DNA of 64,000 bases from Gracilinema caldarium. Its GTDB lineage: Bacteria > Spirochaetota > Spirochaetia > Treponematales > Breznakiellaceae. The stretch is from the NCBI RefSeq assembly GCF_029265695.1, contig NZ_JAJUHW010000002.1:79674-143673 (forward strand), in the 5' to 3' direction. Position 1 is the stretch's first letter. Each line of letters opens with the position of its first letter. This document shows, piece by piece, positions 19,526 to 27,025 of the stretch. The translations under genes were made by a program, and so were the position numbers. The notes under the pieces are model-generated. The model did no database searches and was not told the DNA's origin. It saw only the letters and a list, made by a program, of their open reading frames with translations.

Positions 19526-20839
19526 ATGGGCAAACGACGCTGGATAGGTTTTATTGCATTACGATATTTGTCGCGGTCTAAAAAACGACGCAGATCTTCC
19601 GCTTCAGTTTCATCGATGTTCACTATTATAGGCATCGCTACCGGTGTCTTTGCACTCATTATTGTCATCGGCATCATGAATGGTTTCCAAATGGGATTTA
19701 TAGAAAGCATCCTTGAGATTTCTTCATTTCATCTCCGTATTGAAAAGCCATTAGAGGAGAGCACGGAACCATGGCTTTCAAACCCTCATATTCGCTCGGC
19801 AATCACTTTTTCGGAATTTCAAGCCCTGATCCGGGGAACGCGAAAAAATCAGCAGGTTGCGCTTGTGCGGGGCCTCCCTGCCGATGCGGCAGGGCGTGAT
19901 CCTGCCATGATACAGGCTCTCCATTTACAGGCTGGTAGCTTTGCTGTCGATAAAACCGATTCCATTATACTTGGTACAGAATTAGCCCGTATCTTAGGTG
20001 TACGGATTGGAGACCCTGTTTCACTGGCTTCAATAAGCGGTGATTTGTTTGGAGAGACAAGGCCAGAGCTGGATACCTTTGTTGTCACAGGCATATTTCG
20101 CTCCAATTATTATGAATTTGATTCCTCCTGGGCGTTCATCAATATGGACCGTGCTATAGCTCTTCAGGAAGGAAAGGGCACTGTGCAGCTAGGCGTTAAG
20201 CTCCATGATCGTTGGATGGACCAACAGGTTCAAAAAGAATTGGCAAAAACCAACCCAGATTGGTCAAACCGAATAACAACCTGGCGGGAATATAACCGTT
20301 CTTTTTTCGGAGCCCTCAGAACAGAAAAATTGACCATGTTTCTTTTAGTGGGACTTATATTTGTTGTCGTTGCCCTGAATATGTACCAATCGCAGCGAAA
20401 ATCGGTTTTGGAACGGAGAGAAGAAATAGGATTACTTCGGGCTATGGGAGCATCTGTGCCGTCGATTAAAACAATTTTTGCGATTAACGGGTTTGTGGTA
20501 GGTTTCTCAGGGGCAACCCTCGGCATGCTGCCGGCTCTTTGGTTTGCAAATAATATACAAATGTTTTTTATAATGCTCGAGGGTCTCGTGAATGGTTTTA
20601 TTGGAACTGCAAATGTTATAGTAACGTTTATATCCGGCAATGCGATCCAATTTGACCAAAGAATTACCTTTTTCTCTCCCCAAGTTTTTTATTTAAAGGA
20701 TATTCCATGCAGGCTGGTGCCTTCTGAAGTTTTGATTATCTATTTATTTGGCCTTTTATCAGCCACCCTTGCGTCCCTCTGGGCTGCTGGCCCGGTAAGC
20801 AAGCTTTATCCTGCGGAGGTGCTTCGCTATGATCAGTAA
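19526..20839 (+). CDS. LolC/E-type ABC transporter permease
   Basis: FIALRYLSRSKKRRRSSASVSSMFTIIGIATGVFALIIVIGIMNGFQ; VLERREEIGLLRAMGASVPSI. Confidence 0.88.
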   Translation: MGKRRWIGFIALRYLSRSKKRRRSSASVSSMFTIIGIATGVFALIIVIGIMNGFQMGFIESILEISSFHLRIEKPLEESTEPWLSNPHIRSAITFSEFQALIRGTRKNQQVALVRGLPADAAGRDPAMIQALHLQAGSFAVDKTDSIILGTELARILGVRIGDPVSLASISGDLFGETRPELDTFVVTGIFRSNYYEFDSSWAFINMDRAIALQEGKGTVQLGVKLHDRWMDQQVQKELAKTNPDWSNRITTWREYNRSFFGALRTEKLTMFLLVGLIFVVVALNMYQSQRKSVLERREEIGLLRAMGASVPSIKTIFAINGFVVGFSGATLGMLPALWFANNIQMFFIMLEGLVNGFIGTANVIVTFISGNAIQFDQRITFFSPQVFYLKDIPCRLVPSEVLIIYLFGLLSATLASLWAAGPVSKLYPAEVLRYDQ

Positions 20840-21554
20840 TGAAACGATGCAGACTTCTGTTCCTGCTCTTGAGATTCGGGAGGTCCATAAATCCTATCTT
20901 TCCGGGACTGAAACCCTGGCAATTTTACGATCCGTGTCCTTTTCTGTTTTAGAAGGTTCAAGCGTGGCAATCACTGGAGAAAGCGGCAGCGGCAAGAGTA
21001 CCCTGCTTAATATCCTTGGCGGTCTTGACCGGGCCGATGCGGGCTCCGTCCGGGTAGGGAAATACCTGCTAGAACAGCTCAATGAGCGCCAGCTCAATGA
21101 ATACCGAGGACGGCATGTGGGATTTATTTTTCAATTCCATTATCTCCTTAAGGATTTTACGGCCCTTGAGAATGTAATGCTTCCTGCTTACATGGCAGGG
21201 GCCTCCAAAAAGGATGCCTTGGAAAAGGCTCGACTTTTGCTTGCCGATGTAGGAATGGAACACCGGCTCGGCCATTATCCAGCCCAGCTTTCAGGCGGGG
21301 AACGCCAACGGGTTGCCGTGGCCCGTTCATTGGTAAATGATCCGGATGTGATTTTAGCCGATGAGCCTACGGGCAATCTGGATCGATACAACAGTCAGTC
21401 TGTGGCGGAACTTCTCTTTGCAAATGCCGAAAAATATCGAAAAACCCTCATTGTGGTGACCCATGACGAAGGAATAGCGCGGCGGGCAGAAATCCGATTC
21501 AAACTAAATGAAGGTATCCTTATGACCCAGGACGATAGCGGAGTTTCTCCATGA
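20829..21554 (+). CDS. LolD-type ABC transporter ATP-binding protein
   Basis: [55 protein letters not shown]. Confidence 0.92.
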
Positions 21555-22819
21555 GACAACGGGTACGTTTTTTTATTGCCCTGCGGTATCTCTTAGGCAG
21601 GTCTCCCGAAGGTAGCAGGTATTTGCGGGGGGCTGCTCTGGGAATAGCAATCAGTATGATTCCCATCATGGTAACCCTCATCGTTTCAGATGGTATGATA
21701 CAGGGAATTACTGACCGTTATTTAGAACTGGGGACTGGCCATTTGCAGGTCTATGCCTATGGGCCTGCACAGGAAGAGGTCTCCCTTTTAATACCCCATA
21801 TACAGGATATTGAAGGAGTTAGTCTAATAAGTCCCGAACGGGACGGTCTTGGCATAGTGGTCGGGCCCAATGGTAAAACCGGTGTTACCCTTCGATCTGT
21901 TTCGCACAATTATATTGAGTATCCTGGTACCCGCCAATATCTTTCACTCCTTTCAGGGGAACTGAGCCTGTCTGGCCCAAGATCATGTCTTATAGGGACT
22001 AAGGTGGCTGAGTCTATCGGTGCCAAGCCAGGTGATACCATACGGCTTATGACAGTTAAAAATACAAATACGGGGAATATGATACCGAGGATAACGGCCC
22101 TCACTGTAAGTGGCATTGTTTCTTCAGGGTATCGTGAACTGGATTCTTTATGGTGCTTTATCCCCTATGACTTAGGCCGTTCTATACTGTCTTCGGATAC
22201 CTCTAAATCATTTTTGGTTATTAAAACTAAGAACCCCTATAAGGGACTTGAGTCAACCGCTGCGGTAATCCAAGAACGGTTAGGCGATACTAGTGGAGTG
22301 TACAACTGGAAAGAGCTGCAGGCTACCCAATACCAGTCTTTTGAATCTACCAGACAGATGCTGCTTCTTATTATGGCAATTATTGTTTTAGTTGCAGCGG
22401 TCAATGTGGCGTCCGCAACCAGTATGCTGGTGGTGGAACGGCGGCGTGAAATAGCCATCCTTAAATCCTATGGGGCAGCTCCTTTCGATATTTCTTTGCT
22501 TTTTTCATTAGGGGCTGGAATCACCGGCTTTATCGGTTCTGCTATAGGAATCGCATTGGGACTGGGAATTGGGTATACTATCAATGAAATCATCCATGGA
22601 TTAGAATTTATCCTGTCTGGAATTTCGAGTTTGTACCATGGAGATCCGGTTGTGATTCTTAACCCCTCCTATTATCTTGAACGGATCCCTATTGTGGTTA
22701 ATTGGTCGGTTGTTGGCATACTGTTTGTGATTACCGTGCTTGGTTCTATGATTGCCGCCCTGGGTGGTGCCCGTCAGGCTGGCAAACTATTACCGGTTGA
22801 AATATTACAGAAATATTAA
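21551..22819 (+). CDS. LolC/E-type ABC transporter permease (second copy)
   Basis: FIALRYLLGRSPEGSRYLRGAALGIAISMIPIMVTLIVSDGMIQG; VVERRREIAILKSYGAAPFDI. Confidence 0.87.
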   Translation: MRQRVRFFIALRYLLGRSPEGSRYLRGAALGIAISMIPIMVTLIVSDGMIQGITDRYLELGTGHLQVYAYGPAQEEVSLLIPHIQDIEGVSLISPERDGLGIVVGPNGKTGVTLRSVSHNYIEYPGTRQYLSLLSGELSLSGPRSCLIGTKVAESIGAKPGDTIRLMTVKNTNTGNMIPRITALTVSGIVSSGYRELDSLWCFIPYDLGRSILSSDTSKSFLVIKTKNPYKGLESTAAVIQERLGDTSGVYNWKELQATQYQSFESTRQMLLLIMAIIVLVAAVNVASATSMLVVERRREIAILKSYGAAPFDISLLFSLGAGITGFIGSAIGIALGLGIGYTINEIIHGLEFILSGISSLYHGDPVVILNPSYYLERIPIVVNWSVVGILFVITVLGSMIAALGGARQAGKLLPVEILQKY

Positions 22820-22829
22820 GGATGGACAT

Positions 22830-23363
22830 ATGCTTTGTGATATTTGCGGAAAACGGGAAGCAATTGTATTTATTCATCAGGTGGGTGCGGGGGGACAGTC
22901 AGAATTGCATCTTTGTTCCCAATGTGCCTACGAACATGGTTTACAAAATTTGGAAGGTGATATAGGCAAGGCGCTTTCAGATCTGCTTAAGAAACTGCCC
23001 TTAGATAAAGTGCCCGCATCGGGCCTTTCTCCCTTAGGAAAAGCGAAAAAAAAATATCCCGAACAATGTCCCTTCTGCGGACTTTCTTTACAGGAACTTA
23101 AAAAACAAGGTCTTGCGGGCTGTGAAACATGCTGGAATGTATTTGGAGATCTGTTGGTTGTACCTCATGTTAAAAAACAGGGGGCTCAACAGCATAGGGG
23201 CCGTTTTTCGATCCAAGTTTCTGATGCAATTGCCCAAAAGCAGGAGCTGGAACAACTGAAGAACCTTTTACAGGCTGCAGTTGAAAGGGAAGATTATGAG
23301 CAGGCCGCAATCTACCGGGACCGGATTCGGATTCTAGAAATGGGAGCTGCACGTCGTGGATAA
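22830..23363 (+). CDS. mcsA: McsA-like zinc-finger / UVR-domain protein
   Basis: MLCDICGKREAIVFIHQ...LCSQCAYEHG; CPFCGLSLQELKKQGLAGCETCWNVF; UVR motif LKNLLQAAVEREDYEQAAIYRDRIR. The ORF track start (22752) is 26 codons too early. Confidence 0.88.
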   Translation: MLCDICGKREAIVFIHQVGAGGQSELHLCSQCAYEHGLQNLEGDIGKALSDLLKKLPLDKVPASGLSPLGKAKKKYPEQCPFCGLSLQELKKQGLAGCETCWNVFGDLLVVPHVKKQGAQQHRGRFSIQVSDAIAQKQELEQLKNLLQAAVEREDYEQAAIYRDRIRILEMGAARRG

Positions 23364-24453
23364 TACATGTCTTGAAAACTGGTTTTGGTTTGGCCCAAAT
23401 CATCAGCAGGATTGTATTCTGTATAGCCGTCTCGGCTTTCATCGATCCCTCAAAAATGAACTGTTTCCTCATCGTGCTTCCCCGGAAGACAAGGAAGGGG
23501 TTCTTAATAATGTGCTTGCAGCCCTTAAGGGCCTCGAGATTGATCCCTATATTTTAATAGGACCTGAGAGTTCTAGAGATTGTCAATTATCTGCTCGGGA
23601 GGTTTTTGATATTCCAGAGGTGTTAACCCTGAAAGCGGGAGAAGCGGTTTTTATCGGGGAAAAGGCCTTTCTTGCGACCATAAATATTCATTCCCATATT
23701 AATTTTTCGCTCATGGGACCAGGATCTCAGCCTTTGGAACAGTTTCAGGATCTAGTAGCCATTGATACTCAGCTTGATAAACGCCTCTCCTGGGCCTGCA
23801 CCGAAACCTATGGATTTCTTAACCCAGACCCTATTCATACGGGCAGCGGAATGGAATTTGAAGCCCTTTTGTTTTTGCCGGGTATTATAGACAGTGATAT
23901 GTATGATCGAGTTATGAAGGGACTCCTTGCCCAGGGCTTTGCAATTTCAGTATACGATACAAAGGAGCAAAAGGATGAAGAAGACCTATCGCAGCAAGAG
24001 ATAAGGAGCCCTTTTATTCAACTAACCTATACAGTACCCCTGGGAGTTTCTGAACAGGAAGGGCTTGAAAAAATAACAAATGCCCTTGAAGGTCTTATGA
24101 AGGGTGAACGGGCCACGAGGGAGCGGCTTGCGGAAAAGCTTTCGGAAGAAATAAAGGACAAGTCCTGGCGTGCTTATGCGCTTTTAACTCATGCACAGCT
24201 TCTGTCTAAAACGGAGTGCCGCAGCCTCATTTCAGATTTGCGAGCCGGTATTGTATATGGCAGTTTGCCGATGAGCAGTGCTCAAGGGATTCTGAAAGAC
24301 TGCGACCGATTGTGGTTTGGCACAGAAACGCTGGTACGGCAAGCCCTGGAAGCTTATCCTGCCGATCAGAGATCGGAAAAATTATCAAAAAGTCTCAGAT
24401 CAAAACTTGTCCGGAACATACTTTCGCAGTACCATATAGAGGGGGAGATTTAA
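23356..24453 (+). CDS. McsB-like ATP:guanido phosphotransferase homologue, active site degenerate
   Basis: Position between mcsA and clpC; CILYSRLGFHRSLKNELFPHRASPEDKEGVLNN...SSRDCQLSAREVF...TINIHSHINFSLMGPG...ETYGFLNPDPIHTGSGMEFEALLFLPGI aligns by eye to McsB landmarks. Confidence 0.8.
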   Translation: MDNTCLENWFWFGPNHQQDCILYSRLGFHRSLKNELFPHRASPEDKEGVLNNVLAALKGLEIDPYILIGPESSRDCQLSAREVFDIPEVLTLKAGEAVFIGEKAFLATINIHSHINFSLMGPGSQPLEQFQDLVAIDTQLDKRLSWACTETYGFLNPDPIHTGSGMEFEALLFLPGIIDSDMYDRVMKGLLAQGFAISVYDTKEQKDEEDLSQQEIRSPFIQLTYTVPLGVSEQEGLEKITNALEGLMKGERATRERLAEKLSEEIKDKSWRAYALLTHAQLLSKTECRSLISDLRAGIVYGSLPMSSAQGILKDCDRLWFGTETLVRQALEAYPADQRSEKLSKSLRSKLVRNILSQYHIEGEI

Positions 24454-24454
24454 T

Positions 24455-27025
24455 TTGTTTAAAGGTTTGACCCAACGGGCCCAACGAATATTAACGGTTA
24501 TCGCACAGGATGAAGCTCGCCGCTTCCACAGCGATCAGCTTCTGCCTGAACATATACTCGTGGCGATTATTAAAGATGGATCCGGTACAGCCTGCAGAGC
24601 CCTCGAGGATCTGGCCATCGATTTGCAGGATTTTCGCCATGTCCTTGAACGGGAAATACCGCAAAAAACGGGAACCTTTATTTTTGGCGATGTCCCGCCG
24701 TCCCGTCGTGCCAGGATGCTTCTTGAGGCTGCGGCCGAAGAAGCCCGCGCTTTTGGACACGAATATGTCGGAACGGAACATCTTTTATTGGCCTCGGTGA
24801 GGGAAGAGGATTCACCGGCTGCCCGGTATATTGCCGAAAAACATATCAGTTCTGAGATGCTTCGTTCCACCATACAGCTCGTGTTAGGACAATTCAGAGA
24901 CGATGGCCCTGCCGAAGATCCTCGGGATAATTCGCATATTTCCAGTTCAGGACCTGGTGCTGGTTCTGGCGCAGGTGCTTTTGGCAGCGCTACGTCTTCG
25001 GGTCCAAAAATAACAAGGACCCCTATATTAGACGAATTTTCCCGGGACCTCACTTCCATGGCCCGGCTTGGTGCTATGGATCCTGTTATTGGTCGGGAAA
25101 AGGAAGTTCGCCGGGTAGTACGCATCCTCGCCAGGAGAACGAAAAATAATCCCATACTGGTAGGCGAGCCTGGGGTCGGCAAAACCGCGGTGGTGGAAGC
25201 CCTGGCCCAGCTTATCGCTTCAGAAAACGTTCCGGAAATCCTTGCAGACAAGCGGCTCCTCGCCCTCGATCTCGCATCGGTGGTAGCGGGTACAAAGTAC
25301 CGCGGCGAATTTGAGGAACGGCTCAAAAAAATCATGAAGGAAATCAGCCAGGCTGGAAATATCATCCTCTTTATCGATGAAATACACACCGTAATAGGAG
25401 CCGGAGGGGCTGAAGGCACCATTGATGCCTCTAATATGCTCAAACCGGCCCTTTCCCGGGGCGAAGTGCAATGTATAGGCGCCACAACCCTGTCTGAGTA
25501 CCGAAAACACTTTGAAAAGGATGCGGCCCTAGAACGACGTTTTCAAATGGTGGCCATAGAAGAACCCTCCCTCGATGAAACCATACAGATCCTTCGGGGT
25601 ATTAAATCCAAATATGAAGAACATCATCGGGTAGTCTACAGTGAAGGAGCAATTCTTGCGGCGGCCACCCTGGCCCAGCGATATATTACAGGCCGGTTTA
25701 TGCCCGACAAGGCTATCGATCTCCTGGACGAAGCGGGGGCGAAACGGAAACTTGAGACTGATATAAAACCTGCGGAGCTCAGTGAGATCGAAGCGGAGAT
25801 AAAGCGCCTTACGGAAGAAAAGGTTCGCCTGGTTGCAGCCCAGGACTATGAAAAAGCCGCGGATCTCCGCGACCAGGTTCGGTCTCTTCGTTACCAGCTC
25901 GAATCGGTAAAGCAAGCATGGGAACGGCTTTCCCGGGAAGAGCGGCCTGAAGTCTCCGAAGCGGATATACGGCAAGTCGTAGCCGAGGCCACAGGCATAC
26001 CCCTTGCCCGGCTCGAAGAAAGCGCGTCTCGAAAACTGTTAAAGATAGAAGAAGAACTGCACCGTTCGGTCATCGGCCAGGATGATGCGGTCCAGCGGAT
26101 TGCAGCGGCTATCCGGCGGAGCAGGGCCGGTGTTTCATCATTAAAACGACCCCAGGGCTCCTTCATTTTCTTAGGGCCCACGGGCGTTGGCAAGACGCTC
26201 TTAGCAAAACGGCTCGCCGAGTACCTCTTTGGTACTGAAGAAGCCCTGGTCCGCATTGATATGTCGGATTATATGGAAAAACACAACGCATCCCGTCTTG
26301 TAGGAGCCCCTCCGGGTTATGTGGGATACGAAGAGGGCGGGGTCCTGACTGAAAAAATTCGGCGAAACCCCTACCGGGTCATCCTGTTTGATGAGATTGA
26401 AAAAGCCCATCACGATGTCTTTAACCTGCTCCTTCAGGTATTAGAAGAGGGGGAATTAAAGGACAACCTGGGCCATACGGTCAGTTTCCGCAACACGGTC
26501 ATCATTATGACCAGCAATGCGGGGGCCCGTGAAATTTCCCGGGACGCCCGGCTCGGTTTTAACCCCGATACGGGGATTATGAACCTGGAAGAAATCCGTT
26601 CTGCAGCCCTGGCAGAACTCAAGCGGCTATTTAACCCCGAGTTTATCAACCGGGTAGATGACATAGTGGTTTTCCATGCCCTGTCCCGTGAGCAGGTCCA
26701 GGCTATTCTTGCCCTTGAAATACAGGAGCTGAACAGTCGGCTCCATGATCAAGGTTATGTTATCCAGGTAAAACAAAGCGCCCAGGATCTTCTGATAGAA
26801 AAGGGCTGGGATCCAAAATATGGTGCCCGCCCGATGCGCCGGGCAATTCAAAAGGAACTGGAGGATGTACTGGCGGTGCTTATTCTTGAACAGGACTATC
26901 CGGCAGGGACGGTGTTTGTCGCAGAAGGGCGGGACGGCAAAATCAGCATTAAACCGAAAAGAAATAAACCAGCCCTTATTTCATCGGTTCCAGTGGTTTC
27001 TACTGAGCCGGTGAGCAAGTCCTGA
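24455..27025 (+). CDS. clpC: ClpC-type AAA+ unfoldase
   Basis: TTG start; Clp-N repeats; Walker [10 protein letters not shown] and [12 protein letters not shown]-like middle segment [24 protein letters not shown]. Confidence 0.95.

Follow-up and report, generated by a model that had tools for sequence, protein, structure and literature searches.

A McsB homologue with a dismantled active site between mcsA and clpC in a spirochaete genome, and its relatives across Spirochaetota

MecA-type adaptors bring substrates to ClpC or activate ClpC without phosphoarginine. They resemble the McsB homologue described here in proposed mode of work only, and no sequence relation is expected. In Bacillus subtilis McsB, C167 is essential and arginines hold the ATP phosphates, as follows from PMC7235348 and PMC12467219 together with general phosphagen-kinase knowledge, and R-to-K replacement at position 29, 31, 34, 125, 176, 207 or 337 abolishes activity in each case (PMC7235348). 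Mutation of R255, R272 or R341 spares self-phosphorylation and removes stimulation by McsA (PMC7235348), and in the Staphylococcus aureus complex McsA touches the McsB loop Y147-Y153 with its second zinc finger (PMC12467219). McsB freed from McsA takes CtsR off DNA, and McsB binds ClpC, which the B. subtilis protein stimulates only as an active kinase (PMC5506225). The kinase-dead B. subtilis C167S protein still partly supports degradation of MgsR and is milder than an mcsB deletion for MgsR turnover, so that adaptor and kinase functions are separable (PMC7235348). Among bacterial Ser/Thr pseudokinases, too, kinase homologues with degraded catalysis are conserved and may act as scaffolds, although their fold is unrelated and the review deals with the protein-kinase-like superfamily rather than with arginine kinases of the phosphagen type (PMC12599244). 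A literature search that had most subscription journals outside its range found no paper that describes a naturally non-catalytic McsB or deals with spirochaete McsB.

The window, that is, the whole 64,000-nucleotide stretch analysed, lies on contig C37 of a 3.04-Mb, 95% complete genome whose nearest named relative is the MAG Treponema sp. M74. It carries an mcsB homologue in a tight operon ordered lolE-mcsA-mcsB-clpC:

19526-22819, + strand: lolE-lolD-lolE-type ABC transporter genes, upstream of mcsA in the operon and found also in many spirochaetes
22830-23363, + strand: mcsA, with ATG at 22830 (NF053706, 3.2e-29; PF02151, 2.5e-8)
23356-24453, + strand: mcsB homologue with a dismantled active site (pseudo-mcsB), 365 amino acids, GTG start, McsB family by profile
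24455-27025, + strand: clpC, full length, with Clp_N repeats, both AAA domains and UVR; pArg-pocket glutamates (B. subtilis E32 and E106 positions) kept

The pseudo-mcsB frame contains no internal stop and shares 8 nt with the end of mcsA; clpC begins with TTG at 24455, one base past the pseudo-mcsB stop, with AGGGGGAG upstream of this start. Both neighbours had been called intact, and the profile matches agree: clpC is full length, and the mcsA product, with two CxxC...CxxC zinc fingers and a C-terminal UVR motif, is apparently intact. A close-relative scan of the genome contigs gave one locus only. A 59-row profile picks up the window mcsB at 2.5e-99; searched with this profile and Pfam, the genome yielded neither a second intact mcsB, which the original prediction had named as counter-evidence, nor any other McsB-family member. 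The independent MAG L002 (93% identity) bears the same active-site substitutions, which are therefore not sequencing errors.

By sequence, the product of 23356-24453 is a true McsB homologue by descent. It matches the ATP-gua_Ptrans domain PF00217 with 44.9 bits (1.2e-11; curated cut-off 22.4) and the NCBIfam McsB models over nearly its whole length (1.2e-30 to 1.9e-20), and its best PDB matches are solved McsB structures (9.8e-20). A profile of the spirochaete set aligns with positions 10-352 of the 359 in B. subtilis McsB (E = 5e-106), and in the window protein the alignment runs through R348, within the C-terminal McsB dimerisation domain. The PF00217 domain, the dimerisation domain and the mcsA/clpC operon are thus all present, and the protein resembles McsB of B. 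subtilis, Geobacillus stearothermophilus and S. aureus in whole-length homology across both domains and in genomic position. None of the sequence marks of a functional arginine kinase was found: neither C167 with E121 and E212, nor the five arginines as a set, nor the pArg receptor, nor scores reaching the NCBIfam curated cut-offs (NF053707, 83.7 bits versus 500; NF002194, 106.7 versus 385), below which the intact spirochaete McsB L011 likewise falls. The protein fits a pseudokinase in that catalytic residues are gone while fold residues persist and the gene is under purifying selection, the fold being deduced from sequence only; an AlphaFold model built from an alignment of the window protein and L002 alone (pLDDT 41, pTM 0.31) is not reliable.

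Residue correspondences were taken from pairwise and 132-row alignments, with B. subtilis McsB numbering as reference, and place the following features in the gene:

23422-23448, + strand: YSRLGFHRS, residues 23-31, formerly the SSRIRLARN ATP-phosphate loop; R25 and R30 kept, R31 replaced by G27
23683-23709, + strand: NIHSHINFS, residues 110-118, formerly NEEDHIRIQ; E121 replaced by H112 and R125 by N116, H114 kept
23812-23820, + strand: GFL, residues 153-155, where the GYL of the loop contacted by McsA persists (in S. aureus Y147-Y153, immediately ahead of the catalytic Cys)
23827-23865, + strand: DPIHTGSGMEFEA, residues 158-170, formerly CPTNVGTGLRASV; catalytic C167 replaced by D158, R176 by E167
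23947-24006, + strand: lid-loop region, residues 198-217; RGxYGEG absent, R207 replaced by S198 and E212 by K203, with an acidic insertion
24106-24453, + strand: part of the dimerisation domain; E251, R255, R272 and R348 kept (B. subtilis E251, R255, R272 and R341), pArg receptor R337/D338 lost (S344/K345)

The alignments uphold the four motif changes from which loss of the active site had been predicted. The first loop has lost one arginine (R31) and kept R29 and R34; the second has lost E120, E121, D122 and R125 and kept N119 and H123; the Cys-to-Asp and Arg-to-Glu exchanges that turn CPTNVGTGLRASV into DPIHTGSGMEFEA leave the glycines in place; and the lid motif, described as unrecognisable, has indeed gone. 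Of R29, R31, R125, R176 and R207, only R29 is retained (as R25), and the pArg receptor motif RDxxRA reads SKxxRS. One detail fell away: SSRDCQLSARE is not recognisable as a McsB framework motif, the actual conserved framework (window numbering) being R30, F37, H114, G123, G153-x-L155, G163, E251, R255 and R348, of which G153, G163 and E251 do not vary among 59 sequences from across the phylum. Unlike canonical McsB, the window protein has the catalytic Cys, both catalytic Glu, four of the five ATP-phosphate arginines and R337 replaced; like it, the protein has the GYL of the McsA-contact loop and the E251, R255, R272 and R341 positions. R86 and R281, which also couple to McsA in B. subtilis, are not kept. 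The active-site loss is common to the window, L002 and two further genus members, and D158, H161, E167 and their NPDP context are conserved in all four. Compared with C167S, a single laboratory mutation, the loss is natural, ancient and much deeper.

The window protein has thus almost certainly lost arginine kinase activity, a conclusion strongly supported because residues that are individually essential in B. subtilis McsB are gone and because the genome has no YwlE-type phosphatase motif, CtsR or second kinase. That it is still a protein-arginine kinase using other residues would fit the operon position and the kept pArg-pocket glutamates of ClpC, yet is very improbable: catalytic Glu, Cys or Arg placed elsewhere in the protein were looked for, and the alignable positions hold no alternative set; conservative R-to-K changes at several sites already kill B. 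subtilis McsB; and the cognate eraser motif and CtsR were not found. A repurposed enzyme or nucleotide sensor, its pocket remodelled for different chemistry or another ligand, is a doubtful alternative. The new, genus-conserved D158, H161 and E167 and the kept H114 speak for it, as do relatives in family f2, many of which still keep R29, R31, R125 and a Lys at 176 and may still bind nucleotide; against this, four of the five ATP-phosphate arginines have gone from the window protein, two changed positions are now acidic, and no substitute motif is recognisable.

The genomic setting also differs from that of canonical McsB. The window's genome lacks CtsR and the YwlE-type arginine phosphatase motif; CtsR was absent from all 23 spirochaete genomes examined for it, and a DNA pattern search for the YwlE-type motif CTGNTCRSPM(A) hit one of 392 spirochaete genomes, G111. 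Because diverged phosphatases may escape an exact pattern, this result is supporting rather than decisive. The sole genome with the motif is also the sole genome with an ordinary McsB bearing all catalytic residues. G111 encodes L011 (mcsB with all seven residues and ordinary architecture) and a YwlE-type phosphatase (L164/L178). Low-molecular-weight phosphatases of the window's genus were considered as YwlE candidates and set aside, their loop CTGNSCRSQMAEGW differing in type; we take this loop to be of the arsenate-reductase type.

The check for the same substitutions in other spirochaetes showed that loss of the active site is phylum-wide and the rule across most of Spirochaetota. PF00217 finds matches in 224 of the 392 spirochaete genomes, scoring from 201 down to 22 bits; a weak match in G044 (26 bits, with an in-frame TGA) proved spurious under a better profile. 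Residue-by-residue reading of 129 homologues found C167 missing and no more than three of seven catalytic residues left in 89, including all or nearly all members of families f1 (that of the window), f2, f3, f5 and f34. All seven diagnostic residues in an ordinary McsB architecture were found only in L011 (family f37). Six families (f32, f42, f46, f53, f55 and f57) keep most residues, often with R207K and changes at E212. Near-intact McsB proteins in five of them (L012-L018, L022-L028 and L032-L038 in f32, f42, f46, f53 and f55) often have Lys for R207 and varied residues at E212, and are without a YwlE-type motif; their activity is uncertain, because R207K is inactive in B. subtilis. R337 (RDxxRA) is missing from every spirochaete McsB aligned, L011 included, and R341 is near invariant. 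In a careful tree, with long-branched fusion families left out, the degenerate sequences form one clade (support 76/88), which is compatible with one ancient loss of the active site; several independent origins, considered on the basis of a quick tree, are not required by the careful one, and the losses may number one or more.

The 89 degenerate homologues keep R34 (99%), H123 (98%), G162 (100%), G172 (100%), E251 (100%), R341 (96%), R255 (85%), L164 (83%) and R272 (72%), whereas catalytic sites have fallen to 0% (C167), 8% (E212), 13% (R176), 17% (E121 and R207), 35% (R125) and 37% (R31), a contrast that is partly circular in that the set was picked by catalytic loss. G162-Y163-L164 lies within, or directly after, the McsA-contact loop of the S. 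aureus complex. A permutation comparison of 17 active-site columns with other kinase-invariant columns showed no significant preferential loss (p = 0.20). The pattern is one of general relaxation with retained islands, not of surgical change; what can safely be said is that constraint has lifted from catalysis and persists in islands tied to McsA contact and oligomerisation. McsA at the degenerate loci has at least one CxxC-CxxC finger in 77/77 cases and two in 69/77. Between the window and L002, dN/dS is 0.14 for mcsB, 0.09 for mcsA and 0.025 for clpC; pseudo-mcsB is under purifying selection, and it evolves much faster than its neighbours (51% identity within the genus versus 93% for ClpC).

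This divergence, together with active-site decay indistinguishable from general relaxation and the absence of McsB and McsA from 92 of 100 f1 genomes, would suit a decaying remnant, which lost its function with arginine phosphorylation, persists only through translational coupling between mcsA and clpC and is heading for loss. We regard this as unlikely, since the open frame is full length in every genus member with dN/dS of 0.14-0.22, G153, G163 and E251 hold across the phylum, the genus conserves even the replacement residues D158, H161 and E167 together with their NPDP context, and dead versions occupy dozens of families spanning the phylum, too long a persistence for a neutral remnant.

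The order mcsA-mcsB-clpC holds at most of the roughly 130 spirochaete loci, with intact and degenerate active sites alike. In five loci of family f34 (L071, L072, L105, L110 and L133), mcsA-mcsB is present and clpC is not immediately downstream. Within f1, 8 of 100 genomes have McsB, and the same 8 alone have full-length McsA, the remaining McsA matches covering the UVR region only (20-24 bits); f1 genomes without McsA and McsB retain full-length ClpC (61-69% identical). The f1 locus L173 (G034:C1:1046000-1054102) has the same order, lolE-lolD-lolE-clpC-FAH, with mcsAB cleanly absent and about 95 bp between the lolE and clpC open frames. Given this locus and the co-occurrence within f1, mcsA and pseudo-mcsB were therefore lost as a unit beside a retained clpC. 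Operon linkage can be passively inherited, and co-loss of adjacent genes may be a single deletion, which weighs against an adaptor.

In families f48 and f30, 13/13 proteins examined are fusions that combine a McsA-type zinc-finger segment and the phosphotransferase domain of McsB within a single frame. These frames are 250-450 amino acids long, without the McsB dimerisation domain, and mostly lie just upstream of clpC; the f48 fusions mostly keep the full catalytic set (DEDHxR, CPTN and the Arg/Glu lid). Three of the loci are:

L079:943-1965, + strand: McsA-McsB fusion, f48/f30
L086:865-1938, + strand: McsA-McsB fusion, f48/f30
L089:1387-2550, - strand: McsA-McsB fusion, f48/f30

Further f48/f30 fusions occur at L080, L081, L084, L087, L090-L093, L095 and L096. 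They are genomic evidence for McsA and McsB parts acting as one unit.

The original prediction, a pseudokinase acting together with McsA as scaffold or regulator of ClpC, is thus strongly supported as to loss of catalysis, essential residues having gone, and the role with McsA and ClpC is one that we infer. We give a probability of about 0.6 to the window protein, a descendant of McsB, working in a McsA-McsB complex as a ClpC adaptor or regulator without catalysis, with the decaying remnant as main rival. This role is supported by the conserved operon and strict co-occurrence with McsA, and by the retained McsA-contact loop and McsA-coupling arginines and the natural fusions elsewhere in spirochaetes. 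Judged by its residues, the pseudo-McsB can no longer bind ATP phosphates or move phosphate to arginine; the second zinc finger of McsA would hold the retained G-Y/F-L loop; the dimerisation domain would give the McsA-pseudo-McsB complex an oligomeric form; and the complex may dock on ClpC and, with no phosphoarginine mark, serve as its adaptor or brake towards certain substrates. Since stimulation of ClpC needs kinase activity in B. subtilis, a kinase-dead adaptor would require another way onto ClpC. Also counting against this role are the fast divergence of mcsB, the lack of preferential active-site loss, the missing R86 and R281, the f34 loci with clpC elsewhere and the pArg-pocket glutamates kept in ClpC. 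The same conversion may extend across most Spirochaetota, largely without a YwlE-type eraser and, where tested, CtsR; on whether it was an ancient change to a phosphorylation-free McsA-McsB adaptor of ClpC, with the writer dead, YwlE and CtsR absent and the complex kept, we are evenly divided.

Annotations as 'protein arginine kinase' in much of the spirochaetes probably do not denote kinases, which makes it unsafe to presume phosphoarginine signalling in those organisms. The spirochaete set is a natural series of kinase-dead McsB, from near-intact to fully dismantled, that could part the disputed kinase-independent adaptor role of McsB from catalysis, with the McsA-McsB fusions and G111, which holds a complete writer-eraser pair, as ready comparators. 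A matching loss of the pArg pockets in the ClpC N-domain was considered and found no support, the glutamates being retained throughout. Before the first of them, Pro stands for Thr (B. subtilis T31) in 110 of 113 spirochaete ClpC sequences, and B. subtilis R5 of ClpC is replaced by Gly, Asp, Glu or Asn in nearly all spirochaete sequences (about 110 loci and the window).
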